Positions 19,780 to 48,091 of a stretch of 64,000 nt of DNA are shown here, in pieces. The stretch covers positions 1 through 64,000 of the forward strand of contig JADGDD010000012.1 of NCBI GenBank assembly GCA_016745075.1, read 5' to 3'. The notes beneath the pieces were generated by a model, which was given only the letters and a program-made list of their open reading frames with translations, was not told the origin of the DNA and made no database searches. Source of the stretch: Planctomycetota bacterium. Lineage in GTDB: Bacteria; Planctomycetota; UBA11346. Position numbers and translations under genes: made by a program. Position 1 is the stretch's first letter. The number at the start of each line of letters is the position of its first letter.

Positions 19780-20628
19780 ATGACCAATGTCTTTCAGCGC
19801 CGTGCCGCTTCATCTGACCGCCACCTCTCCCCCACTCTTGAGTTTCTGATTAAGGAACCTGCAGAAGTCTACCATGCGAAACGTGGACAAAATCTCAGTT
19901 CTCATTTACTCGGAGACTTTCGCCGCTGCCCTCAATTGTATCACGATAAAGTAACCGGGCAAATTGCAGACGGTGACCGACCCGCCTACTTAATGGGACG
20001 CGCCGCACATACCCTCACCTTAGAAGGTCGCCAAGTTTATAATAATGAGTACGCCGTTGGTGGCCCCATTAATCCATCAACTGGAAAATCCTACGGCGCT
20101 ACGTCTAAAAAGTTTCAAGACTGGGCCGCCGCACAAAATAAAGATATTCTATCAGATGCACAAGCCGCCCTTGTTGAAGAACTTGCTGCTGCTGTGCATA
20201 AGCACGAAGAGGCGAGTCAGCTTATTGCTACCGGTGTCCCTGAAGGTGTTGCCCGGGCTGAACTCTGCGGTGTTCCCTGCCAAATCCGTATCGACTGGCT
20301 CAACCCAGAAAACGGCATAGTTGATCTTAAAACCTGCGATGATCTTGATTGGTTTGAAGCAGATGCCCGTCGCTATGGCTACGCTCATCAACTGGCGTTT
20401 TATCGTTCGGTTTTACACGCTGCCACTGATTGCACCGTTCCTGTCTACATCATCGCCGTTGAAAAGAAGGCCCCCTACCGCGTCGGCGTGTGGCATCTAA
20501 CCGAGCAAGTCCTCGACAGTGCCGAGCGTGATAACCGCGAAGCCATACACCAACTTCGTACCTGCCGCGACCGTGATAACTGGCCAACTGGTTATGAAGA
20601 CATTCGCGCTTTTGATTACATCACTTAA
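19780..20628 (+). CDS. PD-(D/E)XK nuclease, RecE/exonuclease VIII-like
   Basis: QIRIDWLNPENGIVDLKTCDDLDWFEADARRYGYAHQLAFYRSV. Confidence 0.82.
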   Translation: MTNVFQRRAASSDRHLSPTLEFLIKEPAEVYHAKRGQNLSSHLLGDFRRCPQLYHDKVTGQIADGDRPAYLMGRAAHTLTLEGRQVYNNEYAVGGPINPSTGKSYGATSKKFQDWAAAQNKDILSDAQAALVEELAAAVHKHEEASQLIATGVPEGVARAELCGVPCQIRIDWLNPENGIVDLKTCDDLDWFEADARRYGYAHQLAFYRSVLHAATDCTVPVYIIAVEKKAPYRVGVWHLTEQVLDSAERDNREAIHQLRTCRDRDNWPTGYEDIRAFDYIT

Positions 20629-20677
20629 TTATTTTTTCTTAAACCACAACGAACTCACAACCAACAAGGAGATTTTC

Positions 20678-21436
20678 ATGAGTTTACTCGACACCATTCA
20701 AACAGGCCCACAAGAACGCCCACGCCGCGTGCTGGTCTACGGCACACAAGGCATTGGTAAAAGTACCTTTGCTGCCAACGCTCCAAAGCCGATTTTTATT
20801 CAAACAGAAGATGGCATTGATGGCATTCATTGTTCACGCTTTCCACAAGCACAAAACTTTGATGAAGTTATGCAGGCACTTGGTGACCTGTACGCTGAAG
20901 AACATGTTTTCAAAACCGTTGTTATTGATTCCCTTGATTGGTTGGAAAAACTGATCTGGGCTGAAGTCTGCAAACGCCGTGGCGTTGAAAGCATTGATGA
21001 TATTGGTTATGCCAAAGGCTATAGCTTTGCCCTGACCTATTGGCGTGAATTTTTAGATGGCCTTGCTGCACTGCGTAATGACAAAGGGCTTTCTATTATT
21101 TTTATTGCCCATGCAAAAATAGAAACATTTCAAAATCCCGAAACAGAAAGCTATGACCGCTACTGTCCCAACCTGCACAAACATGTTGCGGCACTGGTAC
21201 AAGAATGGTGCGATGAAGTCTTTTTTGCGACTTATAAAGTTCACACAAAAAATACTGATGAGGGCTTTAATAAGAAACGCGCACAAGGCATTGGTACAGG
21301 TGAACGTGTCATGCGTACCTGTGAACGCCCGGCGCACCTCGCTAAAAACCGTCTCGATTTACCCGAAGAACTCCCACTCGAATGGGCAGCGTATGCCCAC
21401 TTCGTTACCGAATCAACTCAACAGAAAGGAGCCTAA
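20678..21436 (+). CDS. Sak4-like RecA-fold AAA ATPase
   Basis: Walker A VYGTQGIGKSTFAA; TVVIDSLDWLEKLIW; SIIFIAHAK. Confidence 0.85.
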   Translation: MSLLDTIQTGPQERPRRVLVYGTQGIGKSTFAANAPKPIFIQTEDGIDGIHCSRFPQAQNFDEVMQALGDLYAEEHVFKTVVIDSLDWLEKLIWAEVCKRRGVESIDDIGYAKGYSFALTYWREFLDGLAALRNDKGLSIIFIAHAKIETFQNPETESYDRYCPNLHKHVAALVQEWCDEVFFATYKVHTKNTDEGFNKKRAQGIGTGERVMRTCERPAHLAKNRLDLPEELPLEWAAYAHFVTESTQQKGA

Positions 21437-21438
21437 CC

Positions 21439-21891
21439 ATGGCTACACTGAACTTTAACGCCGAAACCGTCGAACCAAACACCGGGTTTGACCCAATTCC
21501 CGCTGGAAAATATCTTGCTGTTATAACCAACAGTGAAATGAAACCCACCAAGCAAAACAATGGTGAATATTTAGAACTCACATTTGAGATTATTGACGGG
21601 CAATACAAGGCGCGCAAGGTCTGGAGCCGCCTCACGCTAGCACATCCAAACCAGCAAGCCGTTACTATTTCACGCGGTCATTTATCGGCTATCTGTCGCG
21701 CCGTTGGTGTCCTGCAACCAAATGATTCCTGTGAGCTACATGACCGTCCACTTACTATTAGTGTAAAATGCAGTAAACGCACAGATACAGGTGACATGGT
21801 CAATGAGGTCAGTTCCTACGCGCCAAGTGAAAGTGCGCAGGGACAGCCAACACAGGCCGCTACCAACACACCACCGTGGCGGCGGTCTTAA
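21439..21891 (+). CDS. DUF669-family, probable ssDNA-associated protein
   Basis: FDPIPAGKYLAVITNSEMKPTKQNNGEYLELTFEIIDGQYKARKVW. Confidence 0.8.
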   Translation: MATLNFNAETVEPNTGFDPIPAGKYLAVITNSEMKPTKQNNGEYLELTFEIIDGQYKARKVWSRLTLAHPNQQAVTISRGHLSAICRAVGVLQPNDSCELHDRPLTISVKCSKRTDTGDMVNEVSSYAPSESAQGQPTQAATNTPPWRRS

Positions 21892-22253
21892 TGCGCGAGT
21901 TCACGCTTCCGTTCCCCCCGTCGATAAATCATTATTATCGGCGGGTGGGGCCGCGCACGTTAATTAGTCGTGAAGGTCGCGCCTTTCGTAAAACGGTCAT
22001 AAGTAATTTGCGCCACCAACAGATTCAAACGCTCGACGGAAGATTACTTGTTACCATTACCGTCTTCCCTCCAGATCGCCGTCGGCGTGATTTAGATAAT
22101 TTACTCAAAAGTACCCTGGACGCTTTACAACATGCGGGGGTGTACAAGGACGATAGTCAAATTGATTCTCTAGAGATTCATCGCGGACCAATTAAACCAG
22201 AAGGTTCTCTTCTGATAATTGTCAGCGAAATCAAACAAAACAGGGGCCAGTAG
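21891..22253 (+). CDS. rusA: RusA-like Holliday junction resolvase
   Basis: PFPPSINHYYRR...RDLDNLLKSTLDALQHAGVYKDDSQI; TAATG coupling. Confidence 0.88.
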   Translation: MREFTLPFPPSINHYYRRVGPRTLISREGRAFRKTVISNLRHQQIQTLDGRLLVTITVFPPDRRRRDLDNLLKSTLDALQHAGVYKDDSQIDSLEIHRGPIKPEGSLLIIVSEIKQNRGQ

Positions 22254-22464
22254 CCTCTTCAACGTTAGGGACACCAACTGAATCAAGCTTTTCTCCTTCT
22301 GTATCAATACGAAATTTCCCCCTATTTGACTTCACCATGATAATATCCGAACCACGAAGTGCATTAAGCATCTCAACTGAATTTTTGGCATCTTCCTCAT
22401 CATCAAAGTCAAAAAGCAAAGGATCTAATTTCTCCTTGCACTTAATTTCAACTCTCCACGGCAT
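22231..22464 (-). CDS. Small hypothetical protein, opposite to surrounding genes
   Basis: 77 aa ORF, convergent overlap with rusA. Confidence 0.35.
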   Translation of the reverse strand: MPWRVEIKCKEKLDPLLFDFDDEEDAKNSVEMLNALRGSDIIMVKSNRGKFRIDTEGEKLDSVGVPNVEEATGPCFV

Positions 22465-22493
22465 ATCACACCCTCCTTATATAGGTATACATT

Positions 22494-24158
22494 ATGCAAC
22501 TAAGATCCTATCAGCAAGCAGCCGTTAATGCGGTCTATACGCATCTGCGTGAACGTACTGATAACCCCGCTATTGTTTTACCAACAGGTTCGGGGAAGAG
22601 TCACGTACTTGGAACGATTGCAGCCGACACCGTTCAACAATGGGAAGGCCGTGCTTTGGTACTGGCCCATGTTCAAGAATTACTGGAACAAAATGCAGAA
22701 AAGATTCGACACTATATGCATGGCGTTGGTGTTGGCATTTATTCAGCAGGACTACGCAGACGCGATACAGGGCTCCCTATTATTGTCGCTGGCATTCAAT
22801 CTGTGTATAGACGCGCCTGTGAGCTGGGTGCGTTTGATCTTATTATTATAGACGAAGCACATCTGATTCCTGCTGATGGTGAAGGTATGTATCGACAATT
22901 TCTTGCTGATATGAAACTGATTAATCCACATATGCGCGTGGTAGGGCTCACTGCAACCCCCTACCGTTTGAAGTCTGGACATATCTGTACGCCTAAAAGT
23001 ATTCTCAATGCGATCTGTTATGAAGCTGGCGTGAAAGAGCTTATTCAAGATGGGTATTTATGCCCGCTTGTTTCTAAGGCAGGAAAAGACAAACCAAACA
23101 CAGCAAGCTTACATAAACGTGCTGGTGAATTTATGGCCAGTGAAACCGAAGCGATGATGGATCAAGAAGAACTCGTTGTTTCGGCCTGCTCCGAAATTGT
23201 CGAACATATGGCTGACAGGCACGCTTGTCTTATATTTGCTGCAGGCGTTGAGCATGCACAACATATTGAATCCGTTCTACGTGAACAGCATAGCTGCAAT
23301 GTCGCCAGCCTCTTTGGCGAAACACCATCTGCTGAACGAGACGCTCTTATTACGCAATTCAAAAACGGGTCACTTACCTATCTTGTCAATGTTGGTGTAC
23401 TGACTACTGGCTTTGACGCGCCGCATGTTGATTGTGTGGTCTTATTGCGACCAACCATGTCTACAGGATTATTTGTACAGATGTGTGGGCGTGGCTTTCG
23501 CCTGCATCCGAATAAGAAGGACTGCCTTGTTCTTGATTATGGCGATAATGTTATGCGCCATGGGCCTGTTGATGCAGTACATATTGCGGAGAATGAACGC
23601 ACCGGACAAACAGGCGAAGCGCCCGCAAAAGAATGTCCAGAATGTCAGACACTTATTGCAACGGGCTTTGCAACCTGTCCAGAATGTGGTTTTGTTTTTC
23701 CACCACCAGAAACCAAACAACATAAAGCACATGCATCCACTGCGGGTATTTTAACGGGGCAGTTTTCAGACACAGAATATACCGTTGAGGAAATGTCCTA
23801 TAGTGTGCATACAAAAATGGGTGCAGATGACAGCACACCAAAAACATTACGTGTAGAGTATCAAATAGGCTGGAACCATTATCACAGTGAATGGGTCTGC
23901 GTTGAGCATACTGGCTTTGCTCGCAATAAAGCAGAAGCATGGTGGCGTGAACGGACAGACCTGCCTATACCAAGCAGTGCTGCCGAGGCTGTAGCGCTTG
24001 CGCATGAAGGGCTGCTTGCTGAACCAACACAGATTACCGTGCGCGATACGGCTGGCGAAAAGTTCCCGCGTATTATTGCGTATGGGTTAAGTGAGAAGCC
24101 AACTGTACAAAGTGAACCTGCTTTGGCGTGGTATGACGATGATGAAGTTCCGTTTTGA
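22494..24158 (+). CDS. SF2 DEAD/DEAH helicase with zinc ribbon
   Basis: LPTGSGKSHVL, IIDEAH, GLTATPYR, CGRGFRLHPNKKDCLVLDYGDN, CPEC...CPECG. Confidence 0.92.
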   Translation: MQLRSYQQAAVNAVYTHLRERTDNPAIVLPTGSGKSHVLGTIAADTVQQWEGRALVLAHVQELLEQNAEKIRHYMHGVGVGIYSAGLRRRDTGLPIIVAGIQSVYRRACELGAFDLIIIDEAHLIPADGEGMYRQFLADMKLINPHMRVVGLTATPYRLKSGHICTPKSILNAICYEAGVKELIQDGYLCPLVSKAGKDKPNTASLHKRAGEFMASETEAMMDQEELVVSACSEIVEHMADRHACLIFAAGVEHAQHIESVLREQHSCNVASLFGETPSAERDALITQFKNGSLTYLVNVGVLTTGFDAPHVDCVVLLRPTMSTGLFVQMCGRGFRLHPNKKDCLVLDYGDNVMRHGPVDAVHIAENERTGQTGEAPAKECPECQTLIATGFATCPECGFVFPPPETKQHKAHASTAGILTGQFSDTEYTVEEMSYSVHTKMGADDSTPKTLRVEYQIGWNHYHSEWVCVEHTGFARNKAEAWWRERTDLPIPSSAAEAVALAHEGLLAEPTQITVRDTAGEKFPRIIAYGLSEKPTVQSEPALAWYDDDEVPF

Positions 24159-24518
24159 ATATAGTAAAAAGAGTCAAACCTAATAAATTGCATATAGATG
24201 TCATATACATAGCATGTAGATAGCATATATAAATAATAGCTTTGCATAAAAGTTTCTAACACTTATGTTTAGCCACCAATATTTTTACAAATAAAAATAC
24301 ATGGAGCACATCATTACATGACATGCCTGATTGTCCCAATACCGCGCTCTACTATGCTAAATATTAGTTGGCGATCCATTTGATAATCTCTTTTGAAAAG
24401 GCAACTGAAATGCAAACGAAACACAAACTTCTCTTATCTCTATTTGCATTCTCGCGTTGACTTATTACCTTTACCCTTCGGCTTTTCTTCCAGTAAAATA
24501 TATGGAGCATTTCATTAC

Positions 24519-26552
24519 ATGACAGATTTCCTTGATGCCGCGCTCTATTACGCTGACCTTGGCTATCCCATATTCCCATGTATTCCCAAAACAAAGAAGC
24601 CAATTACAGAAAATGGGCTGCATGATGCCAGCACGGACTTTGATCAAATCGAAGCATGGTGGAATAAATATCCACAAGCAAACATTGCTATTAATACAGC
24701 AGGGCTTGTTGTTATTGATGTAGATGGAGAAAATAATCCATGGCTTGAAAACAAGGACCTCTCTGGTGCTGTTATTGCTCTGACCCCACGCGGTGGGCGA
24801 CACTTTCTCTATCGTCAGCCAGACGATAAGCAGTGGGGATGTAGTACGAGTAAGCTAGCACCCAAAGTAGATGTGCGTGGGTATGGTGGCTATATTATTG
24901 CAGCACCATCAATCTTTGAGGGCAAGCACTATCGCTGGGCACCACATTGTGAGCTCTGTGATCCTAATGATTTATCACTACCGCCAGAGTGGCTATGCGA
25001 CTTACTTGATAATTTATTAAAAATCAAAGCACCCGTACAAAATGCAAACACCATACCTGACGGACAACGCAATAGTACGCTTGCAAGCCTTGGTGGAAAT
25101 ATGCGCCGTGTCGGCATGAGCCAACCAGAAATAGAAGCAGCCTTGAAACAAGTCAACACAGACCGCTGCAATCCACCATTAGCAGAGAAAGAAGTACAAC
25201 GCATTGCCACGTCTGTTTCACGGTATGAGCCAGATCAAATAAGTGTTGCCGTGGCTGAGCATCATTTTGAGCAAGACCAAGACATAATAATTGATGAAGA
25301 AAAAGACACCGCTGATCCCGGCCCTCTTCCTGAACATTTGCTTCATGTACCCGGGTTTATTGATGAAGTTATGCAGCATACGCTTCGTACTGCCCCCTAC
25401 CCTGAGCGCACCTTGGCTTTCTGTGGAGCTTTAACTTTGCAGGCTATTCTTGCAGGCCGTAAGGTCAAAGAACCAGGAGGCAGCCGGAGCAATCTCTATA
25501 TTCTAGGTCTAGCCAATTCAGGAACTGGCAAAGAACATCCGCGAAAAGTAAACCAACGCATTATGGCAACCGCAGGATTATCCCATCAATTGGGCGATAA
25601 CTTTGCGAGTGGTGAAGGCATAGAAGATCGTATGTTTGCAAGTCGGTCTGTGCTTTTTCAAACAGACGAAATAGATGATATGCTCCAGTCTATATCCAAA
25701 AGCCGTGACGGTCGTGCGGAACGCATTATGGCTATACTCCTTAAATTCTATTCTGCCTCTGGAAGTCTTTATCATATGCGCGTCAAAGCGGGTCAAGATG
25801 CACAAGTCATAGATGACCCCTGTTTGGTTTTATTCGGTACGGCTATCCCTAAACATTATTATGAATCGCTGTGTGAGAAAATGCTCACCAATGGTTTTTT
25901 TGCACGTATGCTCGTAATGGAATCTGGCAGACGTAGTGATGGTCAAGAAGTCAGAGACGAACCGCTCTCTGAGAATATTATTGAAACAGCGCGCCATTGG
26001 GCACAGGTTACTCCGGGATTTGGTAATTTACATAATGAAAATCCGCAACTTCAAGAAGTGCCTTTTGCTAGTGGCTCAGAGGCGTTATTACGGGATATAC
26101 GGGCACAAGAAGTGAAAGCCTATAACGAGGCCCAAGATAGAAACGATGCCATTGCTATGGCCTTATGGGCACGGGCCGTTGAGAAAACCAGACGACTGGC
26201 CCTACTCTGGGCGTGTAGTGAAAACTATGAACAACCAATTATTACACCACGATCTATTGAATGGGGCTGGTCACTCGTTGAGCACCTCACACGACGTATG
26301 TTATTTCAGGTTACACTACATGTAGCCAATTCCGATTTTGAAGCGCGTTGTAAAAAGCTTCTTGGTATTCTGCATTCGTGGCACAGCACAAAGGGCAACA
26401 CACCTATGCCTGCATGGCAGGTAGCCAGACGTATGAAATTATCAAACCGAGAATTGGATGATGTGCGTAATGCATTAGTTCAACAACAGCGAATCTCTTA
26501 TATTGAGAAGCCTACTGGCGGCACACCTCAACGCCTCTACCTATTGACGTAA
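24519..26552 (+). CDS. Prim-Pol bifunctional primase/polymerase fused to DUF3987-like domain
   Basis: YADLGYPIFPCIPKTKKPITENGLHDAST...NIAINTAGLVVIDVDGEN...TPRGGRHFLYR; DUF3987-like YILGLANSGTGKEHPRKVN. Confidence 0.88.
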   Translation: MTDFLDAALYYADLGYPIFPCIPKTKKPITENGLHDASTDFDQIEAWWNKYPQANIAINTAGLVVIDVDGENNPWLENKDLSGAVIALTPRGGRHFLYRQPDDKQWGCSTSKLAPKVDVRGYGGYIIAAPSIFEGKHYRWAPHCELCDPNDLSLPPEWLCDLLDNLLKIKAPVQNANTIPDGQRNSTLASLGGNMRRVGMSQPEIEAALKQVNTDRCNPPLAEKEVQRIATSVSRYEPDQISVAVAEHHFEQDQDIIIDEEKDTADPGPLPEHLLHVPGFIDEVMQHTLRTAPYPERTLAFCGALTLQAILAGRKVKEPGGSRSNLYILGLANSGTGKEHPRKVNQRIMATAGLSHQLGDNFASGEGIEDRMFASRSVLFQTDEIDDMLQSISKSRDGRAERIMAILLKFYSASGSLYHMRVKAGQDAQVIDDPCLVLFGTAIPKHYYESLCEKMLTNGFFARMLVMESGRRSDGQEVRDEPLSENIIETARHWAQVTPGFGNLHNENPQLQEVPFASGSEALLRDIRAQEVKAYNEAQDRNDAIAMALWARAVEKTRRLALLWACSENYEQPIITPRSIEWGWSLVEHLTRRMLFQVTLHVANSDFEARCKKLLGILHSWHSTKGNTPMPAWQVARRMKLSNRELDDVRNALVQQQRISYIEKPTGGTPQRLYLLT

Positions 26553-26920: not shown

Positions 26921-27124
26921 ATGTATCCAATGAATAATTCTACCCCTGCTGCACTCACGCCAGCGGAACTTTCCGCAGCTTTAATCAAAAGTGGTGCGCG
27001 CCACATTGATGAAAAAAAGATTCTAGCAGACATTGCTGCTGATGCGCCAACGAATACAGACGGCACACTAAGTTTGCTCACCTACGCCGCGTGGCTTGTG
27101 AAGGAGCGCGGTCATGGCGCTTGA
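26921..27124 (+). CDS. Small phage protein, paralogous to TerL N-terminus (possible TerS-like)
   Basis: 67 aa; overlaps terL start; shares pattern with the TerL N-terminal segment. Confidence 0.6.
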   Translation: MYPMNNSTPAALTPAELSAALIKSGARHIDEKKILADIAADAPTNTDGTLSLLTYAAWLVKERGHGA

Positions 27125-29384
27125 TCCATCACGGTTACGTCCATCAGAATTAGTGCGCTTACTCAACAGCACCACACTCGGGGCCGTTATCGAAGAACGT
27201 CAACTCTACCGCCAACGTATGCGAGCAGGATTTCGTATTGGCGAAGGGCAAACGGTTAACTTCCCGCGCTATGTGGCATGGCTTGCAGAAGAACGGCACA
27301 AGCCTCTTGAAATAAAAAACACTGACAGCTATGATCTCATGAAAGAATCCGCTCGTCAGCGTAACGCGCACAAATCACTTTCTGGACGAGACATTGCTCC
27401 CCTACCTACTGTCGTTGATGAAGACCGTCGACAAGCTGCGCAGAAAGCATTTCGTCTTTTTTGCGAATCCTATTTTCCGCTCACCTTTCATCTGGGCTGG
27501 TCTACTGATCACTTACAAGTTATTGCAAAAATAGAACAGGCTGTTTTGCATGGCGGCCTGTGTGCTATGGCTATGCCGCGTGGGTCAGGCAAAACGACCC
27601 TTGCAGAAATTGCATGTTTGTGGGCTATGCTTTATGGCCATCGTGATTTTATCTTTCTTATAGGTTCCGATGAAGGCCACGCACAGGGCATGCTCGAATC
27701 CATCAAAACAGAATTAGAATCAAATGATTATTTGCTCGAAGATTTTCCAGAGGTCTGTTATCCCATACAAAAGCTAGAGGGCATTTCTAACCGCTGCTCT
27801 GGGCAATTACTCAATGGCGAACGTACACAGATTGGTTGGACAGCCAGCGAAATCATTCTGCCAACTGTAAATGATTCAGATGCTAGTGGTTCGCTTATTC
27901 GTGTAGCTGGTATTACTGGCCGTATTCGTGGAGCAAAATACAAACGGTCTGATGGACATACCGTGCGCCCAAGTCTAGTTATTTTAGATGACCCACAAAC
28001 GGATGAAAGCGCACGCTCTGTCAGCCAATGTGCCAACCGTGAGCGCGTTATTGCTGGGGCTATACTTGGGCTTGCTGGCCCGGGTAAAAAGATTGCAGGC
28101 ATTATGCCCTGTACCGTTATTCGTCCGGGTGATATGGCTGATCGCATTTTAGATCGTGACCGAAACCCTGAGTGGAATGGTGAGCGTACACGCATGGTCT
28201 ATTCTTTTCCTACCAACGAAAAGCTCTGGGATGACTATGCCACGTTGCGTGCTGAATGCCTACGTGCAAATGGCACCATTACCGATGCCACCGCCTTCTA
28301 TAAAAAACACCGCAACGCTATGGACGCAGGTTCACAAGTGGCATGGGAAGCACGTTATAATCATGACGAAGAATCTGCCATTCAACATGCTATGAATCTA
28401 AAGCTCCAAGATGAAACCGCCTTCTGGGCCGAATACCAAAACGAACCGCTGCCTGATCATGATGACGATGATGAGCAACTCGACACCGAACATATTATGC
28501 AAAAGCTGAATGGCCTACCGCGTCGACGCATACCTATTGGCTGCAATACCCTGACCATGTTTATTGATGTACAGGGCAAAGTGCTCTACTTTGTGGTCTG
28601 TGCATGGGAGGATGATTTCACAGGTTACATTATTGACTATGGAACGTGGCCAGATCAAAAGCGTCGTTACTTTACTTTGCGCGATGCCAAGCACACCCTG
28701 CAAGATGCGACAGCAGGTGCAGGCCAAGAAGGTGTTATCTATGCAGGGCTTGAAAGTCTCACGGCTCTGCAACTCGACCGAGAATGGAAGCGGGACGATG
28801 GAGCGCGTCTCAAAATAGACCGCTGCTTAATTGACGCAAACTGGGGACAAAGCACTGATGTGGTGTACCAGTTTTGCCGCCAATCTCGGCATGCATCTAT
28901 TCTGCTACCAAGTCATGGCCGCTATGTTGGCGCTGCCTCCCTGCCGTTTTCTGAATATAAGAAAAAGCGTGGCGATCGGGTTGGCCATAACTGGCGCATT
29001 CCATCTGTTACTGGAAAGCGTGCCATCCGTCATGTGCTTTATGATACCAACTACTGGAAAAGCTTTGTTGCTACACGCTTCTTAGTTGCCATGGGTGATC
29101 GTGGCTGTTTATCACTCTATGGTAAGCAACCGGAACTACACCGCATGATAGCGGAACATTGTGCTGCTGAATATCGCGTTAGAACTGAAGGACGTGGACG
29201 CACTGTTGATGAATGGAAAGTACGGCCAGAGGCGAGTGATAACCACCTATGGGACGGGGTGATTGGATGCGCTGTCGTCGCATCAATATCAGGAATAAAC
29301 CTACTCACGAATACGGTAAAAGCAAAAAAAACGGCTATCAAACTCTCCTTTCTCTATAAACAAAAAGGGCAAAAAAATGGATGA
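27114..29384 (+). CDS. Phage terminase large subunit
   Basis: MPRGSGKTTLAEIACLWAMLYGHRDFIFLIGSDEGHAQGMLESIKTELE; LVILDDPQTDESARS. Confidence 0.88.
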   Translation: MALDPSRLRPSELVRLLNSTTLGAVIEERQLYRQRMRAGFRIGEGQTVNFPRYVAWLAEERHKPLEIKNTDSYDLMKESARQRNAHKSLSGRDIAPLPTVVDEDRRQAAQKAFRLFCESYFPLTFHLGWSTDHLQVIAKIEQAVLHGGLCAMAMPRGSGKTTLAEIACLWAMLYGHRDFIFLIGSDEGHAQGMLESIKTELESNDYLLEDFPEVCYPIQKLEGISNRCSGQLLNGERTQIGWTASEIILPTVNDSDASGSLIRVAGITGRIRGAKYKRSDGHTVRPSLVILDDPQTDESARSVSQCANRERVIAGAILGLAGPGKKIAGIMPCTVIRPGDMADRILDRDRNPEWNGERTRMVYSFPTNEKLWDDYATLRAECLRANGTITDATAFYKKHRNAMDAGSQVAWEARYNHDEESAIQHAMNLKLQDETAFWAEYQNEPLPDHDDDDEQLDTEHIMQKLNGLPRRRIPIGCNTLTMFIDVQGKVLYFVVCAWEDDFTGYIIDYGTWPDQKRRYFTLRDAKHTLQDATAGAGQEGVIYAGLESLTALQLDREWKRDDGARLKIDRCLIDANWGQSTDVVYQFCRQSRHASILLPSHGRYVGAASLPFSEYKKKRGDRVGHNWRIPSVTGKRAIRHVLYDTNYWKSFVATRFLVAMGDRGCLSLYGKQPELHRMIAEHCAAEYRVRTEGRGRTVDEWKVRPEASDNHLWDGVIGCAVVASISGINLLTNTVKAKKTAIKLSFLYKQKGQKNG

Positions 29385-30339
29385 GATTAACGAACTGATA
29401 AAATGGTGGAGTCAAAACTACGGAGTTGCGGCCTTATATGATACGGCGGGAGAAAAAATCACTGTAGGAGTCGCTGGAAAATGTCGCTTTTGCGGAAAAG
29501 ATAACTCCGAAACTACCTTCAGAAATAAAGCACATGCAATATCAGACTCGCTTGGCAATAGAAAAATCATTTCACTTGACGAGTGTGACGAGTGCAATGG
29601 TTTATTTGGCAGAACGATAGAAGACCATTTAGGAAGGTATATGGCTGCCCCCAGAGCTATTTCCCAAATAATAGGAAAGCGAGGGGTTCCCTCCTATAAA
29701 ACAAAGCAAAAGAAATCAAGGTTGTCTACGACTGAAGGCTGCCTTTCTATAGAAAATCATGAGGATGATTCCTTTGTAGAAATAGACGAGAATAATAAAA
29801 CGGTTACTTATACAATGACCAGACAATCATATAGTCCCATAAGTGTCTATAAAGCATTTGTAAAAATGGCGATTAGCATAGCGCCACAAAGCTTACTTCC
29901 ATATTTGAACGAGGCCAATAGATGGGTCAGATCACAAAATAGTAATCATATCTCATTTCCACCATTTATATTCGAAGGTTTCATCCCTGGACTAACACCA
30001 TTCCAAAACAATATTTGGACGACCCTTCTAGTCAGAAAAACAAACACTCCTTCACCAGGAGTAGTTTTTGTTCTTCAGGTATCAAATTATTTATTTCAAA
30101 TACCTATCCCATCACCCATCATTGATGCAGACTTAGGCGTCGAAAGTATATCCATGCAAATGTTTCCTACACCATTCGACTTAAGCAATCCATGCGGAGC
30201 AGTTAAACGATGGCCAAAAAAGATGGAGGGACACGATTTAATACAAAATGATGAATTTAAAATTACCCAGAAGTGTATTGAAATGACTCCGGTTGATATT
30301 TCAAACAAAAAAATACAAAAAAATGCCGAAGATAAATAA
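29377..30339 (+). CDS. HNH-like endonuclease (CxxC/CxxC), accessory insertion
   Basis: CRFCGKDNSETTFRNKAHAISDSLGNRKIISLDECDECNGLFG. Confidence 0.72.
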   Translation: MDEINELIKWWSQNYGVAALYDTAGEKITVGVAGKCRFCGKDNSETTFRNKAHAISDSLGNRKIISLDECDECNGLFGRTIEDHLGRYMAAPRAISQIIGKRGVPSYKTKQKKSRLSTTEGCLSIENHEDDSFVEIDENNKTVTYTMTRQSYSPISVYKAFVKMAISIAPQSLLPYLNEANRWVRSQNSNHISFPPFIFEGFIPGLTPFQNNIWTTLLVRKTNTPSPGVVFVLQVSNYLFQIPIPSPIIDADLGVESISMQMFPTPFDLSNPCGAVKRWPKKMEGHDLIQNDEFKITQKCIEMTPVDISNKKIQKNAEDK

Positions 30340-31242: not shown

Positions 31243-31443
31243 ATGTCGGATGACGACCTCAGTCAAACCATAAAAGAAACTGCCGCCACGGCTAAAAAAG
31301 CAAAAGGCGACAATGGCGAACTTGAGCAGCACAATCTCTCTGAATTAATTACCGCAGACCGCTACCTTAAAGAACAAGAAGCAGCGCGGAACCCAACAAA
31401 AACATTACGTTTCTCACGCGTTGTTCCACCGGGGAGCGTGTAA
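31243..31443 (+). CDS. gpW-like head-tail joining protein
   Basis: LSELITADRYLKEQEAARNPTKTLRFSRVVPPGSV; immediately upstream of portal. Confidence 0.65.
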   Translation: MSDDDLSQTIKETAATAKKAKGDNGELEQHNLSELITADRYLKEQEAARNPTKTLRFSRVVPPGSV

Positions 31444-32915
31444 TGTTTGGCTGGGGTAAAAAGAAAACAGTCGAAGCACGAAAAAGCCGCCCCGTTGTGC
31501 GTGCTCGCTATGACGCTGCACAAACAAGCGGCAATAGCCGCAGGCATTGGGACGCAGCAGACGGACTTTCTGCACGCGCTGCCAACTCACCAGATGTGCG
31601 CCGTACCCTCCGTAATCGTTCACGTTATGAAGTTGCTAATAATTCTTATGCTAAAGGCATTGTTCTCACACTCGCTAATGATGTTATTGGAACAGGCCCA
31701 CGCCTGCAAATGACAGGGCTGAAGCCAGAAGCTGCTCGGCTTGTTGAAAATGAATTCATGAATTGGACACGGGCTATTAACCTGTCCGAAAAATTACACA
31801 CACTACGCATTGCTCGTACACAAGATGGTGAAGCCTTTGCCCTGTTTAGTAATAACCCATCGCTACCCACCCCCGTTACGTTAGACCTGCGGCTTATTGA
31901 AGCAGAACAAATTACCACGCCAGACCCACGCCTTGCTGGTGATCCACGCGCTATTGATGGCATTCGCTTTGATGCCTACGGCAGCCCCGTTGAATACCAT
32001 ATTCTCAAAGAGCATCCGGGAGACACCCACCTTGGCACAGGACTTGGCTTTGATCGCGTTCCCGCCAACGCCATCTTGCATGACTTCCGTCGCGAACGTC
32101 CCGGACAAGAACGTGGCATTCCTGAAATAACACCTGCTCTCCCACTCTTTGCTATGCTACGTGATTATTCACTAGCGACTTTAGACGCAGCAAAAGCCGC
32201 CGCCTATTTTGCTGGCATTCTCTATACAGACGCACCCCCCAATGGGGAAGCGACCGATATAGAACCAATGGACGCACTGGAGCTAGAGCGCAACATGCTA
32301 CTCACCATGCCCGGCGGCTGGAAGCTTGGACAAGTCAAAGCGGAACATCCCACCGCTAGCTATAGCGAGTTCAAAAAAGAAATACTGAATGAAATTGCAC
32401 GCTGTTTGAATATGCCCTTTAATGTCGCGGCTGGAAATTCATCTGGCTACAATTACGCATCTGGTCGTTTGGATCATCAAACTTATTTCAAGAGTATCCG
32501 TGTTGATCAAACCCATGTCGAAACCGTTCTCCTTAATCGTATTTTTGAAGCGTGGGTTAATGAAGCCGTTCTTATTGAAGGCTATTTACCACAACGCTTA
32601 CGCACAGTTTCAACCGATTGGTCACATCAATGGTTTTGGGATGGTGTCGAGCATGTCGACCCAGCCAAAGAGGCTACTGCTCAAAAAACACGGCTGGAGT
32701 CACATACCACAACACTGGCCGATGAGTACGCCAAAAAAGGACAGGATTGGGAAACGGCGCTGCGGCAGCGAGCAAAAGAAAAAGAATTAATGGACGAACT
32801 CGGTCTGACCGCCGCGCCTCCCAAAGAAGTTGAAGAAGAAAAAGAAAATACAAATAGCGCTGATGATGAAAAACAATCCTCAGATACGGAAAAGGAAACA
32901 ACAGATGCTGCCTAA
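31443..32915 (+). CDS. Phage portal protein, lambda family
   Basis: RRHWDAADGLSARAANSPDVRRTLRNRSRYEVANNSYAKGIVLTLANDVIGTGPRLQM. Confidence 0.92.
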   Translation: MFGWGKKKTVEARKSRPVVRARYDAAQTSGNSRRHWDAADGLSARAANSPDVRRTLRNRSRYEVANNSYAKGIVLTLANDVIGTGPRLQMTGLKPEAARLVENEFMNWTRAINLSEKLHTLRIARTQDGEAFALFSNNPSLPTPVTLDLRLIEAEQITTPDPRLAGDPRAIDGIRFDAYGSPVEYHILKEHPGDTHLGTGLGFDRVPANAILHDFRRERPGQERGIPEITPALPLFAMLRDYSLATLDAAKAAAYFAGILYTDAPPNGEATDIEPMDALELERNMLLTMPGGWKLGQVKAEHPTASYSEFKKEILNEIARCLNMPFNVAAGNSSGYNYASGRLDHQTYFKSIRVDQTHVETVLLNRIFEAWVNEAVLIEGYLPQRLRTVSTDWSHQWFWDGVEHVDPAKEATAQKTRLESHTTTLADEYAKKGQDWETALRQRAKEKELMDELGLTAAPPKEVEEEKENTNSADDEKQSSDTEKETTDAA

Positions 32916-34932
32916 ATATGTTCGTATTATTACTGCCGTTGCTGGGTGGACTGATATGACCGCCAGCGAAACAGAAAATGACAAACCTGCCTTGCGCCGT
33001 TTTAATATGACGGCCTATACAGGCTCAGCGATGGCTCTTGCTGGCTGGGACGCACCTGTCGTTGTGGACTTAGCAGGATTACAGATCAGCGCTAAAGCCC
33101 GTCCTATTTTACGAGACCACAACCCCGCACTTATTGTTGGTCATACCGATAGCGTCAGCGTTGATGATGGGCAGCTTCATGTTGCTGGCACCGTTTCCGG
33201 CGCTGGTGCTATAGCCCAAGAAGTCATTGCTGCCGCTGAGAATGGTTTCCCATGGCAAGCCTCCATTGGCGCAAGCGTTCAAAACGCTGATTTTATTCCC
33301 AGAGGAAAGCAAGCCGACGCTAATGGCCGTTCCTTTACTGGTCCCGTTTATATTGCCCGCACTGCCGCGCTTGGAGAGGTGTCGTTCGTCGCCCTTGGCG
33401 CGGATGATAACACCACCGCCACCGTTACTGCATCCCAATCCCATCAGGAGAACGCTACTATGGATTTCACCACATGGCTGACCGCCAAAGGCTTTGATGC
33501 CGATTCCCTCACCGACGCACAAACAACAACGCTCCAAGCCATGTTTGATGCTGAACAAGCTGACGCTACCGGAGGAGATGAGCCTCCAACACCACAAGCC
33601 CCTGCGCATAATGACAGCACCCCTGTTGGAGATTTGCGCGCTGAACTTGCTGCCGAAACAGAACGGGTTGCAGCTATTCGCGCAACCTGCTCTGGACAAC
33701 ACAACACCATAGAAGCCCAAGCGATAAAAGACGGCTGGGATGTCACCCGCACTGAACTGGAAGTCCTACGTGCTGAACGCCCCAGTACCGTTAACACCGT
33801 TACGGGTGGGCATGATGTACCAACCAATGCCGTCTTAGAGGCAGCAGCCTGTTTGGCTTCTGGTATCAGCACACCTGAACAACATTTTAATGAGCAAACA
33901 CTCGATGCCGCAGACAAACGCTTTCGTGGTCAGCTTGGCCTGCAAGAGTTACTCTTAGAAGCTGCATGGGCTGGTGGCTATAATGGACGCAGCTTTCGCG
34001 GTGATATGCATGGCGTTTTAGAAGCCGCTTTTTCTAACCTCAGTTTGCCGAGTATTTTCTCCAATATTGCTAATAAGTTTTTACTGGCTGGATTTGAAGG
34101 TGTTGAAGATACATGGCGTGCGCTTGCTAGCATTCGCACCGTTCGTGATTTTAAGCAAGTTTCTTCGTATCGCTTGAATGGCGGCTTCACCTATGAAGAG
34201 GTTGGCCCTGATGGTGAACTTAAGCATGGCGAGCTTGGTGAAGAAAGCTACCACAACCAAGCCAAGACCTATGGTAAAATGTTTAGTCTTACCCGGCATG
34301 ATCTTATCAATGATGATCTTGGTGCGCTGACTGCTGTACCACGTCGTTTAGGACGAGGCGCTGCCCTGAAGCTGAATGATGTTTTCTGGCGCACCTTTTT
34401 AGATGACGCTGCATTCTTCTCTGCCGGAAATAATAACCTACTGACCGGAGCAAACACGGCCCTGAGTATTGATGCGCTCACAACGGCTGAACAACAGTTT
34501 CTTGATTTAGAGGATTCAGACGGCAACCCTATGGCGGTCAGCCCTGCCATTATGCTTGTACCAAATGCTTTACTAGCACCTGCAAGCCAACTTATGCAAG
34601 CAACCAGCGTGCGTGAAGACGGCAATGCGAACAAATCAAAATACCTCACCAACAACCCACACGCTGGCAAATTCCAAGTCGTCCGTTCATCCTATCTTGG
34701 TAATGGTAAGATACCCGGCGGTAGCGTTTCTGCATGGTACTTACTGGCAAATCCTGCTGACATGCCCGTGATTGAAGTTGCTTTTCTCAATGGTCAGCAA
34801 CGCCCAATCGTCGAACGAGCTGATGCTGATTTTAATGTCTTAGGCATTCAAATGCGCGGCTATCACGACTTCGGTGTTGCCCGCCAAGAACCGAAAGGCG
34901 GCCTCAAAAATACTGGTGTTGCTGCTAGCTAG
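32905..34932 (+). CDS. Prohead protease-major capsid protein fusion
   Basis: Protease-like FPWQASIGASV...GEVSFVALGAD followed by capsid-like C-terminus; in-frame internal start at 33460. Confidence 0.88.
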   Translation: MLPKYVRIITAVAGWTDMTASETENDKPALRRFNMTAYTGSAMALAGWDAPVVVDLAGLQISAKARPILRDHNPALIVGHTDSVSVDDGQLHVAGTVSGAGAIAQEVIAAAENGFPWQASIGASVQNADFIPRGKQADANGRSFTGPVYIARTAALGEVSFVALGADDNTTATVTASQSHQENATMDFTTWLTAKGFDADSLTDAQTTTLQAMFDAEQADATGGDEPPTPQAPAHNDSTPVGDLRAELAAETERVAAIRATCSGQHNTIEAQAIKDGWDVTRTELEVLRAERPSTVNTVTGGHDVPTNAVLEAAACLASGISTPEQHFNEQTLDAADKRFRGQLGLQELLLEAAWAGGYNGRSFRGDMHGVLEAAFSNLSLPSIFSNIANKFLLAGFEGVEDTWRALASIRTVRDFKQVSSYRLNGGFTYEEVGPDGELKHGELGEESYHNQAKTYGKMFSLTRHDLINDDLGALTAVPRRLGRGAALKLNDVFWRTFLDDAAFFSAGNNNLLTGANTALSIDALTTAEQQFLDLEDSDGNPMAVSPAIMLVPNALLAPASQLMQATSVREDGNANKSKYLTNNPHAGKFQVVRSSYLGNGKIPGGSVSAWYLLANPADMPVIEVAFLNGQQRPIVERADADFNVLGIQMRGYHDFGVARQEPKGGLKNTGVAAS

Positions 34933-35000: not shown

Positions 35001-35333
35001 ATGACCGCACGTTTTGTTCATCAAGGTAATAATCTTGATATCGTCCCCGCAACAGACATTGATTCAGGAAGCGTTATTATTAGCGGTGACTTAATCGGCA
35101 TTGCTTCTCTTCCGATTCCTGCAGATGCACTTGGCTCTATTACTGTTACAGGTGTTTTTGATATTCGCCGCGAAACAGGCGCAGCGACACCACTCGGCAC
35201 CAAGTTGTATTTTGATGCCGCCAATAATCGCGTCAGTGATGATGATGATTCAGGAGCACGACCCTATATTGGTATGTCTGTTCAGGCGGCAGCGGATAAT
35301 GACCCGACTGTTCGCCTGCGCCTCAATCATTAA
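35001..35333 (+). CDS. DUF2190-family capsid decoration protein
   Basis: GNNLDIVPATDIDSGSVIISGDLIGIASLPI...GVFDIRRETG. Confidence 0.85.
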   Translation: MTARFVHQGNNLDIVPATDIDSGSVIISGDLIGIASLPIPADALGSITVTGVFDIRRETGAATPLGTKLYFDAANNRVSDDDDSGARPYIGMSVQAAADNDPTVRLRLNH

Positions 35334-36932: not shown

Positions 36933-37439
36933 ATGAGTGCTACAACAGACATGAGAATTGAAGGCGAGAAAGACCTCGTCAAAGCGCTCAATAAATTAGA
37001 TGAGCGCACACTACTCAAAGTCGGTAAAGGTGGCATGCGTACTGCTGCACGACCTGTTGTTCGTATGGCAAAGCGTCTTGTTCCAGTACGCTCTGGTCGC
37101 CTGCGCACATCTCTTGCCGTAAAAATAACGGTTGGTGACCATGCCCTGCTTGCGTGGATTGGCCCACGGCGTGACTTTCGTTACACGGGCACTGATAAGG
37201 TCAAACGAGTCTCTGGCTACGGTAAACAAAAAAAACGAGCCATGAAAAAAGGCGCAGTACATGATAATGTTAATCCTATCCTGTATGCCAGCGGCATAGA
37301 ATATGGCAAACAGAGCAATGGTCGCATTGCACGCAAACGAGGCGGTGTCCATTTTCTTGAGCGTGCGCTCAATGCAAATAAAAACACCGCATCAGGGCAT
37401 CTTGCAAGTGGCCTTCGTAAGTATCTTGCAAAAATATAA
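36933..37439 (+). CDS. HK97 gp10-like protein
   Basis: RTAARPVVRMAKRLVPVRSGRLRTSLAVK...HFLERAL. Confidence 0.85.
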   Translation: MSATTDMRIEGEKDLVKALNKLDERTLLKVGKGGMRTAARPVVRMAKRLVPVRSGRLRTSLAVKITVGDHALLAWIGPRRDFRYTGTDKVKRVSGYGKQKKRAMKKGAVHDNVNPILYASGIEYGKQSNGRIARKRGGVHFLERALNANKNTASGHLASGLRKYLAKI

Positions 37440-37491: not shown

Positions 37492-37911
37492 ATGTCTACC
37501 ATTGCCCTCGAAGGTGTCGGCGCACGTATTAAATTCTACAGTAGCAATTTAACCAGTGATCTTATTACGTTGTCACTACCCGAGCGAGCGCGTGAAGCTA
37601 TTTCAACCACCCACCTTGGAACGAAGGTCGCCAAGACCAGCAAGCCGGGGAAACTTATTGATGCGGGACAAATTTCTGCTGAATTTGACCATGACCCGGA
37701 CGCGCCTGTTCTACTCAAGCAAGACCCTGAAACGATTGCTATTCATTATCCACTTGAGGAAGGGCAGGACAATCCCGCACGCTTGTCGTTTAAGGGGTTT
37801 GTGGTGAGCGAAGGCGGCGAAGAATTTAATGTGGATACACGCATGACGACCAAGGTAACCATTCAGGTTATTTCAGATTACAGCTATACGCCTGCAACAT
37901 TACTTCCATAA
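37492..37911 (+). CDS. Major tail tube protein
   Basis: Position and beta-rich composition between gp10-like gene and tail chaperone. Confidence 0.65.
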   Translation: MSTIALEGVGARIKFYSSNLTSDLITLSLPERAREAISTTHLGTKVAKTSKPGKLIDAGQISAEFDHDPDAPVLLKQDPETIAIHYPLEEGQDNPARLSFKGFVVSEGGEEFNVDTRMTTKVTIQVISDYSYTPATLLP

Positions 37912-37968: not shown

Positions 37969-38370
37969 ATGTCTATCACGCTCACTCGCGATTCTTTTCT
38001 CTCCACCTACAACACTACTGATGATATCCAGCAAGTCGAATTACCTGATGGTAATCATATCTTTATTAAGCCACTCACTGGACGTGGAGCTGATGCTTTT
38101 GCGCATGCTACACAAAACACGCCTGACCTTGCACGCTCTACCCTACTCGCCCAATGTGTTTGTGATAAAGATGGCGCACCTTTTTTCACCAATACCGATG
38201 TTTTTCGTGTTGCTGAATTACCAAATACTATCGTTCTACCCATCGTTGATGCGATCATCGAGCATAACGGCCTCAATGATGACGGAGGACAAGCAGCGCT
38301 GGGTTTTTCCGAAGCAACCCCGTCGAGCGTATCTGGTTCAGACTCGCCCGCGACACCAGCCGCAGTGTAG
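37969..38370 (+). CDS. Tail assembly chaperone (gpG-like, zero-frame product)
   Basis: Position directly before tape measure; contains slippery GGGTTTT at 38301. Confidence 0.8.
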   Translation: MSITLTRDSFLSTYNTTDDIQQVELPDGNHIFIKPLTGRGADAFAHATQNTPDLARSTLLAQCVCDKDGAPFFTNTDVFRVAELPNTIVLPIVDAIIEHNGLNDDGGQAALGFSEATPSSVSGSDSPATPAAV

Positions 38371-38540
38371 CAGAGGCCAAAGCAACTATCACGCTTAATG
38401 AATTTCGTTACTGGTCAGCATTCTATCTCTGGGAAACAGAGGCACTTATGCCAGCAGAGAAAAGGCCAAAGCGGCCCGCAAGTGCAAGTAGAGCGTGTGC
38501 AGAAATCAATAAACTTTTTGGTATTACAGAAAGGAGGTAG
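37969..38540 (+). CDS. Tail assembly chaperone gpG-gpT frameshift fusion (-1 PRF at 38301-38307)
   Basis: G_GGT_TTT in zero frame; -1 frame runs FRSNPVERIWFRLARDTSRSVAEAKATITLNEFRYWSAFYLWETEALMPAEKRPKRPASASRACAEINKLFGITERR to TAG at 38538. Confidence 0.85.
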
Positions 38541-38546
38541 AAATAG

Positions 38547-40664
38547 ATGTCGAATAAAATCATCTCCCAACTGGCCGTGCTGCTTAAACTAAAAGCAGGC
38601 GGCTTTTCGTCTGGCATGAAGAAGTCACGCAAGCAGACGAAAGGCTTGGGACATGATCTTGATAAGGTAAAAGGTGCGGCCATAGGACTGAGCGGAAAGT
38701 TGCTCGGCATGGTTGGCGTTGGTGCTGGGCTGGCTGGCATTACGGCAGGCATAGCGTCAGCAAGTGACCGTATTGATGGCATAGCAAAAACATCAGACAA
38801 GCTAGGCATTGCTACTGACAAACTCGTCGGCATTCATCATGCGGCACAATTAACTGGGAATAGTATTACCCAAACCAATACGGCTTTGCAGCGCATGGTG
38901 CGCCGTGTTGCTGAAGCAGCACAAGGAACCGGCACGGCAAAAAATGCCCTTAAAGAATTAGGTATTTCTGCTCAAGAAATGAACCGCCTTGCACCCGACC
39001 AACAATTCGAGCGCCTTGCTGGTGCCATGGGAAAAGTTGGCACCAAAGCAGATAGAGTGCGCTTGGCTATGGGCTTATTCGATACCGATGGGGTGGGCTT
39101 GGTTAATACGCTAGCTCTTGGTGTTGATGGATTGCGAGATACGGCCACCGAAGCAGAAAAGCTGGGCATATCGCTCTCCCGTGTTGATGCCGCCAAAGTA
39201 GAAATGGCTAATGATGCCATGTTTCGCTTAAAACAAATAGCAACTGGTGTATTTAATCAGCTCAGCATTCAGGTAGCCCCTATCATTGTTACGGTTGCGG
39301 AAGAATTAACGGGCGCTGCTACGGCTGGAGATGGCCTTGGTGCAACGATGGGCAACATGGCCAGTTATGGTGCGAAGGCAGTCGGCTTCTTGGCAAATGC
39401 ATGGCAGGGATTAAAGATTATATTTAAAGCCACACAGCTTGGCCTCACAAAAGGGCTTGGTTGGGTTCTTGAAAAGGTAAACAATGTTATTGCTGTTACT
39501 AAATGGCTTGCAACTATTACAGGACGTGTTGGCACATTTATGTCAGCTTCTTGGGATGGTATGGGACATACTTTTGCTCTGATGGGCAATGGTATGAAAG
39601 TGGTCTTCGCTAAGACCGTTCGGCTTATTAGTAATCAGATTGGCGACCTCATCAAAAAGGCATCAGATGCGGCCTACCTTTTTGATGCGGAACTTGGATC
39701 TACCTTGCTCGCGGGTTACCATAAAATCACTGTAGCTAGTGGCGCATTTGTTGGTCAGGCTGAAACAGATTTTGCCAAAGCTGGTATGGCTGCCTACAAT
39801 GCCGCAGAAGAATCAAGCAAAGCATGGAACTCTATTTTTACAGTTATGCCAACGGGAAGTGGTAGCGACACCATTAGTAATTTCGTTGCTGGTATGGCTG
39901 TTGTTCAAGAAACGCAGCAAAAAGAACTGAATACACTGCGCAATCAATCCGTTGCTGCTGATGCCGTCTGGCAAGGCTACCAACGAATTAATCAAGCCAT
40001 ACAGGAACGTGCTGTCATCACTGCAGAGGCAGCAGCCTTAAGTGGAAGCGAAGAAGACCCGGTTATCGCTGCAGAAAAAGCGCGGCAGTCGATGCTTGAG
40101 GAAATGGCAAAAACGCATCAAGGATCACTGACGGGAATATGGTACGCGGGTTTACAGCAACGAGAGAAATTTGTGAAACAAAGTAGCTGGGCGCAAGTAA
40201 AAGATGTATTCTCCTCACTAGAAACCATGACGCGGGGCGTTGCGCAACATAGCAAGACCATGTTTAAGATTAACCAGGTAGCGGGTATTGCGAATGCAAT
40301 TATTAATACGGCGCAAGGTGCCACTAAAGCGCTGGCCGCATACCCTCCCCCCCTTGGCCCAATTATGGCAGGGCTCGTTGTCGCTGCTGGGGCTTCGCAA
40401 ATCATGGCGATTAAAAATACAAGCTTTGGTGGCGGTGGATCAGCTCCAAGTATTGCGGCATCTATTGCGCAACCGTCACCAAGCGGTGGCGGCGTTGGGG
40501 AAGACAGTGCTGGTGGTGATTCCAAGAGCGGGCAATCTGAACGACAAACAACTTCACAGGCATTAGTTATTCAGGGAGATTTTATTTCAGCAGAATATCT
40601 TGAAAGAATTTCACAGGAAGCCAAAGAACGAAATATAATGTTTTCGGAGATACGTCGTGGCTAA
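38547..40664 (+). CDS. Phage tail tape measure protein
   Basis: Long ORF, helical/hydrophobic, positioned after tail chaperone; KLKAGGFSSGMKKSRKQTKGL start. Confidence 0.9.
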   Translation: MSNKIISQLAVLLKLKAGGFSSGMKKSRKQTKGLGHDLDKVKGAAIGLSGKLLGMVGVGAGLAGITAGIASASDRIDGIAKTSDKLGIATDKLVGIHHAAQLTGNSITQTNTALQRMVRRVAEAAQGTGTAKNALKELGISAQEMNRLAPDQQFERLAGAMGKVGTKADRVRLAMGLFDTDGVGLVNTLALGVDGLRDTATEAEKLGISLSRVDAAKVEMANDAMFRLKQIATGVFNQLSIQVAPIIVTVAEELTGAATAGDGLGATMGNMASYGAKAVGFLANAWQGLKIIFKATQLGLTKGLGWVLEKVNNVIAVTKWLATITGRVGTFMSASWDGMGHTFALMGNGMKVVFAKTVRLISNQIGDLIKKASDAAYLFDAELGSTLLAGYHKITVASGAFVGQAETDFAKAGMAAYNAAEESSKAWNSIFTVMPTGSGSDTISNFVAGMAVVQETQQKELNTLRNQSVAADAVWQGYQRINQAIQERAVITAEAAALSGSEEDPVIAAEKARQSMLEEMAKTHQGSLTGIWYAGLQQREKFVKQSSWAQVKDVFSSLETMTRGVAQHSKTMFKINQVAGIANAIINTAQGATKALAAYPPPLGPIMAGLVVAAGASQIMAIKNTSFGGGGSAPSIAASIAQPSPSGGGVGEDSAGGDSKSGQSERQTTSQALVIQGDFISAEYLERISQEAKERNIMFSEIRRG

Positions 40665-44166: not shown

Positions 44167-45162
44167 ATGAAGAAAACACTGCTCTACATTCTCAGCATCC
44201 CTTTCTTGCTAATTGCAATAATAACGAGCATAACCTGCCTTGTAGACCCAAACAACGGCACATTAACCCTTTCTATCATCTCTTGGGGATTTTTCATAGT
44301 CATCATATACAAAGGCAAGAAAAGCGGCAATAGCAAGAATTCCCATATCACGATAGAAACGTCTTACATTCACAACGGAGAAAACGAAAGCAGCCTTGAA
44401 GGCATGAAAGCACAAAAAATACTGAAGATCATAGATACATCATCACTGAACAGCAAACCGTGGCACAAAGACCCCGTTTCTAAAAAACAAAAAGATCTAC
44501 TTGAAGACTTCGAGGTCAAAAACATTAGCAACTTAACCAAAGGAGAAGCTTCGCTAATCATTTCAGCTATTTTTGATGAGAATAACAACCCACAACAAGG
44601 CTCATCTAGCCACCCCAACCCCGAAGACCAAAAGAATTCAATTAATTGGGCCAACAAAGTCCTTAGCGATAAAAATAAATATGTCATTTTAGATACCGAA
44701 ACGACTGGATTAGGTAAAAAGGATGAGGTCATTCAAATAGGCATTATCGACATGGATGGCAAAACACTTCTCACGCAAAATATCAAACCAACACATCACA
44801 CATCGATACCTAAAGAAGCATCTCAAGTTCATGGTTTAACGATGAAAGATCTAAAAAAATGCCCAACTTTTGATCAACTGGAAGAAAAGTTAGAAACAGT
44901 ACTTAACGGAAAAGTCATCATCGCTTACAACTCCAAATTCGATAAACGCCTCTGTATCCAAACACAAAAGATATGCGGTGGTTACCAAATCAAAAACAAA
45001 TGGTCTTGTGCCATGCTAGAATACGCCAAATTTATAGGAGAATTGAATAGCAGTAAAGGTAATTATAAATGGCATAAGCTTGAAGGTGGTGACCATAGTG
45101 CCACAGGAGACTGCATTGCCACCCTTAATGTCATTAAAAAGATGGCTGGACAAATACAATAA
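44167..45162 (+). CDS. DEDDh 3'-5' exonuclease (DnaQ-like) with N-terminal TM segments
   Basis: KYVILDTETTGLGKKDEVIQIGI...VIIAYNSKFDKRL...HSATGDCIATL; N-terminal hydrophobic helices. Confidence 0.85.
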   Translation: MKKTLLYILSIPFLLIAIITSITCLVDPNNGTLTLSIISWGFFIVIIYKGKKSGNSKNSHITIETSYIHNGENESSLEGMKAQKILKIIDTSSLNSKPWHKDPVSKKQKDLLEDFEVKNISNLTKGEASLIISAIFDENNNPQQGSSSHPNPEDQKNSINWANKVLSDKNKYVILDTETTGLGKKDEVIQIGIIDMDGKTLLTQNIKPTHHTSIPKEASQVHGLTMKDLKKCPTFDQLEEKLETVLNGKVIIAYNSKFDKRLCIQTQKICGGYQIKNKWSCAMLEYAKFIGELNSSKGNYKWHKLEGGDHSATGDCIATLNVIKKMAGQIQ

Positions 45163-47017: not shown

Positions 47018-48091
47018 ATGAAAAAATCACTCAATCCCATCTCGTGGCTCAAAGCCATGATGCCCGAAACCAATCGTGAAGATGAATATCTGCGGATTAT
47101 TCAACTGTTATCAGAACAGCTCAATATCTACATCGAAACATCTCCACGTCCAAAAGTCACCGATACACAACGCAGTAGACTTGGCACCCTATCTCGTCTT
47201 ATAGATCGCAAGACACTGCATTCGCTACCTTGTATGGTAAAAGTAGACACCATGCTCGGCTGGGTACGACAACTCCAAAGACGAAAGTTCCACTCTCAGT
47301 CAGATAAGTCCAAAGGCGGGCGACCAAATCTTGAACAAATAATTCGTAAAGAAATTATCAAACTGGCTAATGCTGGCTGTTTAACTGCACGACGACTTGA
47401 GGGAGAATTAAAAAAATGCAATCTTGAAGTAAGTCATGAAAGTATTCGGAAAATCCTGCGTGAAGAAGGATTTCCATCTGGTAGCGATAACGACTCTTGG
47501 GCAAAGTTCATCAAACGGCAGATCCACTTAATGCTTTGTACGGATTTTTTCACCATTGAAACAGGAGGACTCCTCCCCTTCACCAAAGCGCGCACACATT
47601 ATGTTTATTTCATCATGGATATGGCAACCAGAGCAGTTAAAATCATCAACATGACCGAGCATCCAACACAGGAATGGACTGTGCAGCAAATCCGCAATCA
47701 TGCTCTAGAAGATGATAACCTTTTCGCTGGAAAGAAATATCTCATTCATGACAATGGACCACAGTTCAAAAAGGATTTTTGCTGCATTCTCAAATCAGAA
47801 GGCATTACGACGAAAGCGATCATGCCCTATGCGCCAAACATGAATGCGTATGCCGAAAGGTTTGTCAGAACAATACGCGAGGAATGCTTGAATAAATTTG
47901 TATTCTTCAATAAAGCTCAGCTTAGACGAGCACTTTCACAATTTGAAGAACACTACAATACAGAGCGCCCACACCAAGGAATTGGTAACGAAACTATCAC
48001 ACCTTGGAAACATGCTGAAAATACGGGCGACATTATCTGTGATGAAAGACTTGGCGGATTGCTCAAGTCATTTCGCCGCGAAGCTGCCTAG
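47018..48091 (+). CDS. DDE integrase-core transposase
   Basis: LCTDFFTIE, LIHDNGPQFKKDF, PNMNAYAERFVRTIREECLNKF, HYNTERPHQGIG. Confidence 0.9.
   Translation: MKKSLNPISWLKAMMPETNREDEYLRIIQLLSEQLNIYIETSPRPKVTDTQRSRLGTLSRLIDRKTLHSLPCMVKVDTMLGWVRQLQRRKFHSQSDKSKGGRPNLEQIIRKEIIKLANAGCLTARRLEGELKKCNLEVSHESIRKILREEGFPSGSDNDSWAKFIKRQIHLMLCTDFFTIETGGLLPFTKARTHYVYFIMDMATRAVKIINMTEHPTQEWTVQQIRNHALEDDNLFAGKKYLIHDNGPQFKKDFCCILKSEGITTKAIMPYAPNMNAYAERFVRTIREECLNKFVFFNKAQLRRALSQFEEHYNTERPHQGIGNETITPWKHAENTGDIICDERLGGLLKSFRREAA

Follow-up and report, generated by a model that had tools for sequence, protein, structure and literature searches.

Does the tail assembly chaperone gene of this prophage encode a single protein, or two proteins that share an N-terminus through a programmed -1 frameshift? 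The gene lies in the window, the whole 64,000-nucleotide stretch of DNA analysed here, which opens a 120,579-base contig in a draft bacterial genome of 4.68 Mb. Its zero-frame product of 133 amino acids (37969..38370, + strand), the putative counterpart of lambda gpG, matches two families annotated as 'tail assembly chaperone', PHROG 344 (3.4e-13) and PHROG 1749 (1.7e-4). The match to Pfam Phage_TAC_13 is weak (4e-5) and under the Pfam cut-off, and comparison of the zero-frame chaperone with PDB chains by sequence gave no match.

The genes around the chaperone are those of phage heads and tails, and their reading frames are open. They include a terminase (27114-29384), a lambda-type portal (31443-32915), a single long ORF that combines the head maturation protease with the major capsid protein (32917-34932; PHROG 4523, 'major head and protease protein'), a head decoration protein (35001-35333), an HK97-gp10-like protein (36933-37439) and additional tail genes. 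The major tail (tube) protein gene (37492..37911, + strand; PHROG 158, 6e-4; Pfam Phage_TTP_11, 9e-4, under the Pfam cut-off) stands upstream of the chaperone as V does in lambda, and the tail length tape measure protein gene (38547..40664, + strand; PHROG 9483, 4e-79) completes the order major tail protein, chaperone, extension, tape measure. Elsewhere in the prophage, an HNH endonuclease-like gene (29377-30339; Pfam HNH_5, PHROG 26663) sits between the terminase and portal genes, and an early-gene block (19780-26552) encodes an exonuclease VIII-like protein, a Sak4-like annealing protein, a DEAD/ResIII helicase and a Prim-Pol/DUF3987 primase. Downstream of the tail genes, an ORF at 44167-45162 combines an RNase_T/DnaQ-type exonuclease domain with an N-terminal stretch resembling membrane helices, and an integrase-core (rve_3) transposase-like gene (47018-48091) lies 3' of the late genes.

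The -1 frame of the chaperone gene is closed up to a TGA at 38280, then open from 38283 to 38537, and ends at a TAG (38538-38540). The extension that a shift would reach in this frame (38307..38540, + strand) comprises 77 codons plus TAG and stops six bases before the ATG of the tape measure gene at 38547; its length, its stop and the residues read from 38307 are those given in an earlier note on this DNA. The predicted fusion junction reads ALGFFRSNPVER. The extension, a candidate counterpart of lambda gpT, matches PHROG 337 'tail protein' (1.2e-5), and the fused product shares 53% identity with its nearest relatives.

A putative slip site lies 67 nt 5' of the zero-frame stop. The zero-frame codons there read CAA GCA GCG CTG GGT TTT TCC GAA, placing the heptamer G_GGT_TTT (38301..38307, + strand) with GGT in the P site and TTT in the A site. 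As the same note had proposed, and as reading the codons bears out, the heptamer stands in exact X_XXY_YYZ register, with 38301 at codon position 3 of the 37969-38370 ORF. In RNA, G_GGU_UUU fits the rules derived in E. coli as an R_RR.U_UU.Y motif and is shiftier than its type predicts (PMC4066793), and a Burkholderia phage chaperone has GGGTTTT as its proposed slip site (PMC7266877). A background rate was obtained by counting in-register X_XXY_YYZ heptamers over the late ORFs of the prophage. They occur at 13 of 3729 codons, so that about 0.10 would be expected by chance in the 29-codon overlap, and the heptamer taken alone is consequently suggestive, a modest piece of evidence for frameshifting. 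Another in-register heptamer, T_TTT_TTC at 38181, was considered and rejected, the -1 frame there closing about a dozen codons further on. Comparisons of homology, reading frame and substitutions, described below and all drawn from sequence, exceed chance by far.

Homologous loci allow the junction to be compared across relatives. Fifteen were inspected: three in this genome (the window, C31 and C32), ten in other genomes of the phylum (two in G004, C28 and C30; two in G246; and one each in G322, G063, G215, G324, G385 and G219) and those of phages Psymv2 and Mcat24. Neither viral nor genome contigs were matched in single-protein look-ups, and an alignment query matched only the two G004 contigs and no viral contig. 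At all 15 loci the -1 frame encodes the extension, and a canonical in-register heptamer is present at the junction in 13, the same scan recovering GGGAAAG in lambda. The heptamer is GGGTTTT in the window, AAAAAAG in C31 and C32, AAAAAAC in G322, G385, G219, Psymv2 and Mcat24, GGGAAAA in G063, both G246 loci and G215, and GGGAAAC in G324. The sites in C32 (L003, 1794-1800) and C31 (L004, 1815-1821) are A_AAA_AAG, and their chaperones are only distant relatives of that in the window; this one genome thus has three chaperone loci with two different slip sites. In the public records of Psymv2 (L010, 3360) and Mcat24 (L011, 3291), the T-type extension is annotated separately and a -1 fusion across A_AAA_AAC is unannotated.

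The two loci lacking a heptamer are the closest relatives of the window, the G004 loci C28 and C30, whose contigs come from a genome in the window's own family. They read GTC CCT ACC where the window reads CTG GGT TTT, giving C_CCT_ACC (L006 and L007, about 1848-1854) with GAGGAGG upstream. The earlier note had looked to conservation of GGGTTTT as a check and to loss of the slippery site in close relatives as refutation. The outcome is mixed, with the foreseen loss seen in part: the exact heptamer varies, and in the G004 loci only a C_CCT tetramer takes its place, yet the -1 frame relation holds throughout and these two relatives keep the fusion arrangement. Across the 15 loci, the slip-site sequence turns over among relatives while the frame relation persists.

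The G004 loci also bear on whether the -1 product might arise by another route through the overlap, either slippage of a single tRNA or slippage of RNA polymerase on the run of five T. A run of that length is short for transcriptional slippage. Single-tRNA slippage draws on the G004 junctions, where C_CCT is a Z_ZZN tetramer of a type (C_CC.U) that in E. coli shifts weakly and requires a stimulator (PMC4066793). Two-tRNA heptamers are nevertheless found in most relatives, and such a route for the window is judged very improbable. It is also conceivable, if rather unlikely, that one chaperone lineage exchanged a two-tRNA G_GGT_TTT heptamer and a single-tRNA C_CCT tetramer at the homologous codon; a Shine-Dalgarno (SD)-like element retained upstream, and not the heptamer, would then be the lasting part of the signal.

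The identity of the extension was assessed with a family profile built from an alignment of 13 extensions, which share the core F-(R/K)-L-A...(L/I)...M...E...W-x-A. Pfam Phage_tail_T matches six of the 13 (best 4.6e-16), the window's own extension not being among them, and PHROG 337 matches nine. Compared with lambda T by hhalign, the family profile gives a probability of 95% and an E of 5e-8; by this profile match, the extension and lambda gpT are homologues.

A T-type domain of this kind could in principle be made on its own, through re-initiation or from an internal start, with no fusion formed. Psymv2 and Mcat24 annotate such extensions as genes of their own, and the lambda T entry is a CDS that starts at GTG. 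Against this, the -1 frame contains no ATG, GTG or TTG from the slip site up to the conserved WFRLAR...EF..W part in the window, both of its own paralogues and both G004 loci. In the window, the first of these codons is found only 47 codons past the shift, beyond the conserved domain, in line with the earlier observation that the extension has no start codon near the shift. Separate synthesis would also leave the in-register heptamers at 13 of the 15 junctions unexplained, and is highly unlikely.

Pairwise comparisons of near relatives, in which differences were counted at codon positions 1/2/3 in the zero frame before the slip and in the -1 frame after it, indicate where one frame gives way to the other. 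G004 C28 and C30 differ by 5/1/15 at zero-frame positions before the slip, and after it, at -1-frame positions, by 0/0/2 in the overlap and 3/0/11 beyond it. Other overlaps give, again by -1-frame position, 1/0/5 for C32 versus C31, 1/0/5 for G246a versus G215 and 0/1/3 for G246a versus G246b. Between the window and G004, the overlap (9/8/10) is too saturated with substitutions to choose a frame, whereas the counts beyond it (23/18/43) favour the -1 frame. Among the near relatives, differences thus gather at third positions, those of the zero frame before the slip and those of the -1 frame after it, even in the doubly read overlap. In the relatives compared, these patterns locate the change of frame at the slip site or close to it and show purifying selection on the -1 frame.

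The same comparisons bear on the idea that the chaperone gene is simply broken, whether by prophage decay that left an indel or by a sequencing error, and that no fusion is made. The prophage does lie in a draft assembly, and the transposase-like ORF at 47018-48091 is downstream of its late genes. A chance lesion is nonetheless difficult to reconcile with an identical -1 relation at 15 homologous loci in various genomes and phages, with the purifying selection seen on this frame in relatives, or with the open terminase, portal, capsid and tail genes around the site. The probability of a broken gene is accordingly close to negligible.

Frameshifting at such heptamers may be assisted by neighbouring elements. 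An SD-like GGAGGA inside the chaperone gene (38284..38289, + strand), which the earlier note did not mention, is a candidate stimulator. It lies 11 nt upstream of the heptamer, and the 12 nt from its end to the heptamer's second base satisfy the 6-17 nt spacing rule (PMC4066793). As background, any SD-like motif falls within that range at 8.9% of codons, and GGAGG at 0.3%. The rule in its loose form is passed by 12 of the 15 loci. This recurrence is suggestive, because the Glu-rich codons of this stretch favour such motifs. The host 16S gene and its 3' end, the site of the anti-SD, were not found in the assembly by pattern search or Rfam, and no downstream RNA hairpin was significant relative to shuffled sequences (z -0.7 to +1.3).

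Taken as sequence evidence, the locus very probably encodes, in a siphovirus-like prophage, a tail assembly chaperone with a -1 frameshift of the lambda G/GT type. The lambda G/GT arrangement had been recognised in the earlier note, and it gains support from PHROG 344 and PHROG 337, the gpT profile match, the gene order, the -1 relation at 15/15 loci and the heptamers at 13/15. In the mechanism we infer, the majority of ribosomes would stop at the TAG at 38368-38370 and yield the G-type chaperone of 133 aa. While tRNA-Gly is paired with GGT and tRNA-Phe with TTT, a minority would slip back one base to GGG/TTT, probably aided by pairing of the internal SD-like GGAGGA with 16S rRNA. The slipped ribosomes would go on in the -1 frame and produce a fusion of about 190 aa whose C-terminal domain is of the T type. 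On the lambda model, binding of the tape measure protein would fall to the G part and recruitment of the major tail protein to the T part, and the ratio of chaperone to fusion would follow the shift frequency.

The frameshift of lambda G/GT is reportedly the subject of work by Levin in 1993 and by Xu in 2004 and 2013. The window resembles lambda in the order V-G-T-H, an X_XXY_YYZ heptamer near the end of G, homology of the T domain, and a -1 extension that overlaps G and ends at the start of the tape measure gene. Unlike lambda, it has GGGTTTT rather than GGGAAAG, a T part of 77 rather than about 144 residues, 67 rather than 22 nt from slip to zero-frame stop, and an SD-like element upstream of the slip; the lambda system has been reviewed (PMC5009743). 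ORF16/16.1 of Burkholderia phage phiE067 is likened to the window by its gene kind and its proposed heptamer, GGGTTTT in both, with the tape measure gene nearby, although phiE067 is a myovirus (PMC7266877). In Psychrobacter phage Psymv2, gp33/gp32 are a homologous chaperone and T-type -1 extension annotated as two genes, but the site is A_AAA_AAC, the zero-frame stop follows it immediately, and identity is 24%. E. coli dnaX likewise has an SD-like sequence shortly upstream of its heptamer. There, however, a downstream hairpin contributes, none having been detected in the window, and the shift shortens the product.

This kind of frameshift has long been known in long-tailed phages and, as judged from sequence, the present example is a well-supported but ordinary one. 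It brings a prophage lineage that has been little sampled into the range of the familiar G/GT frameshift and adds a further case in which ORF callers miss a frameshift extension. Of mild interest is that the slip sequences (GGGTTTT, AAAAAAG, AAAAAAC, GGGAAAA, GGGAAAC and C_CCT) vary among relatives, while the position and the frame are retained, as is, in most cases, an SD-like motif upstream.
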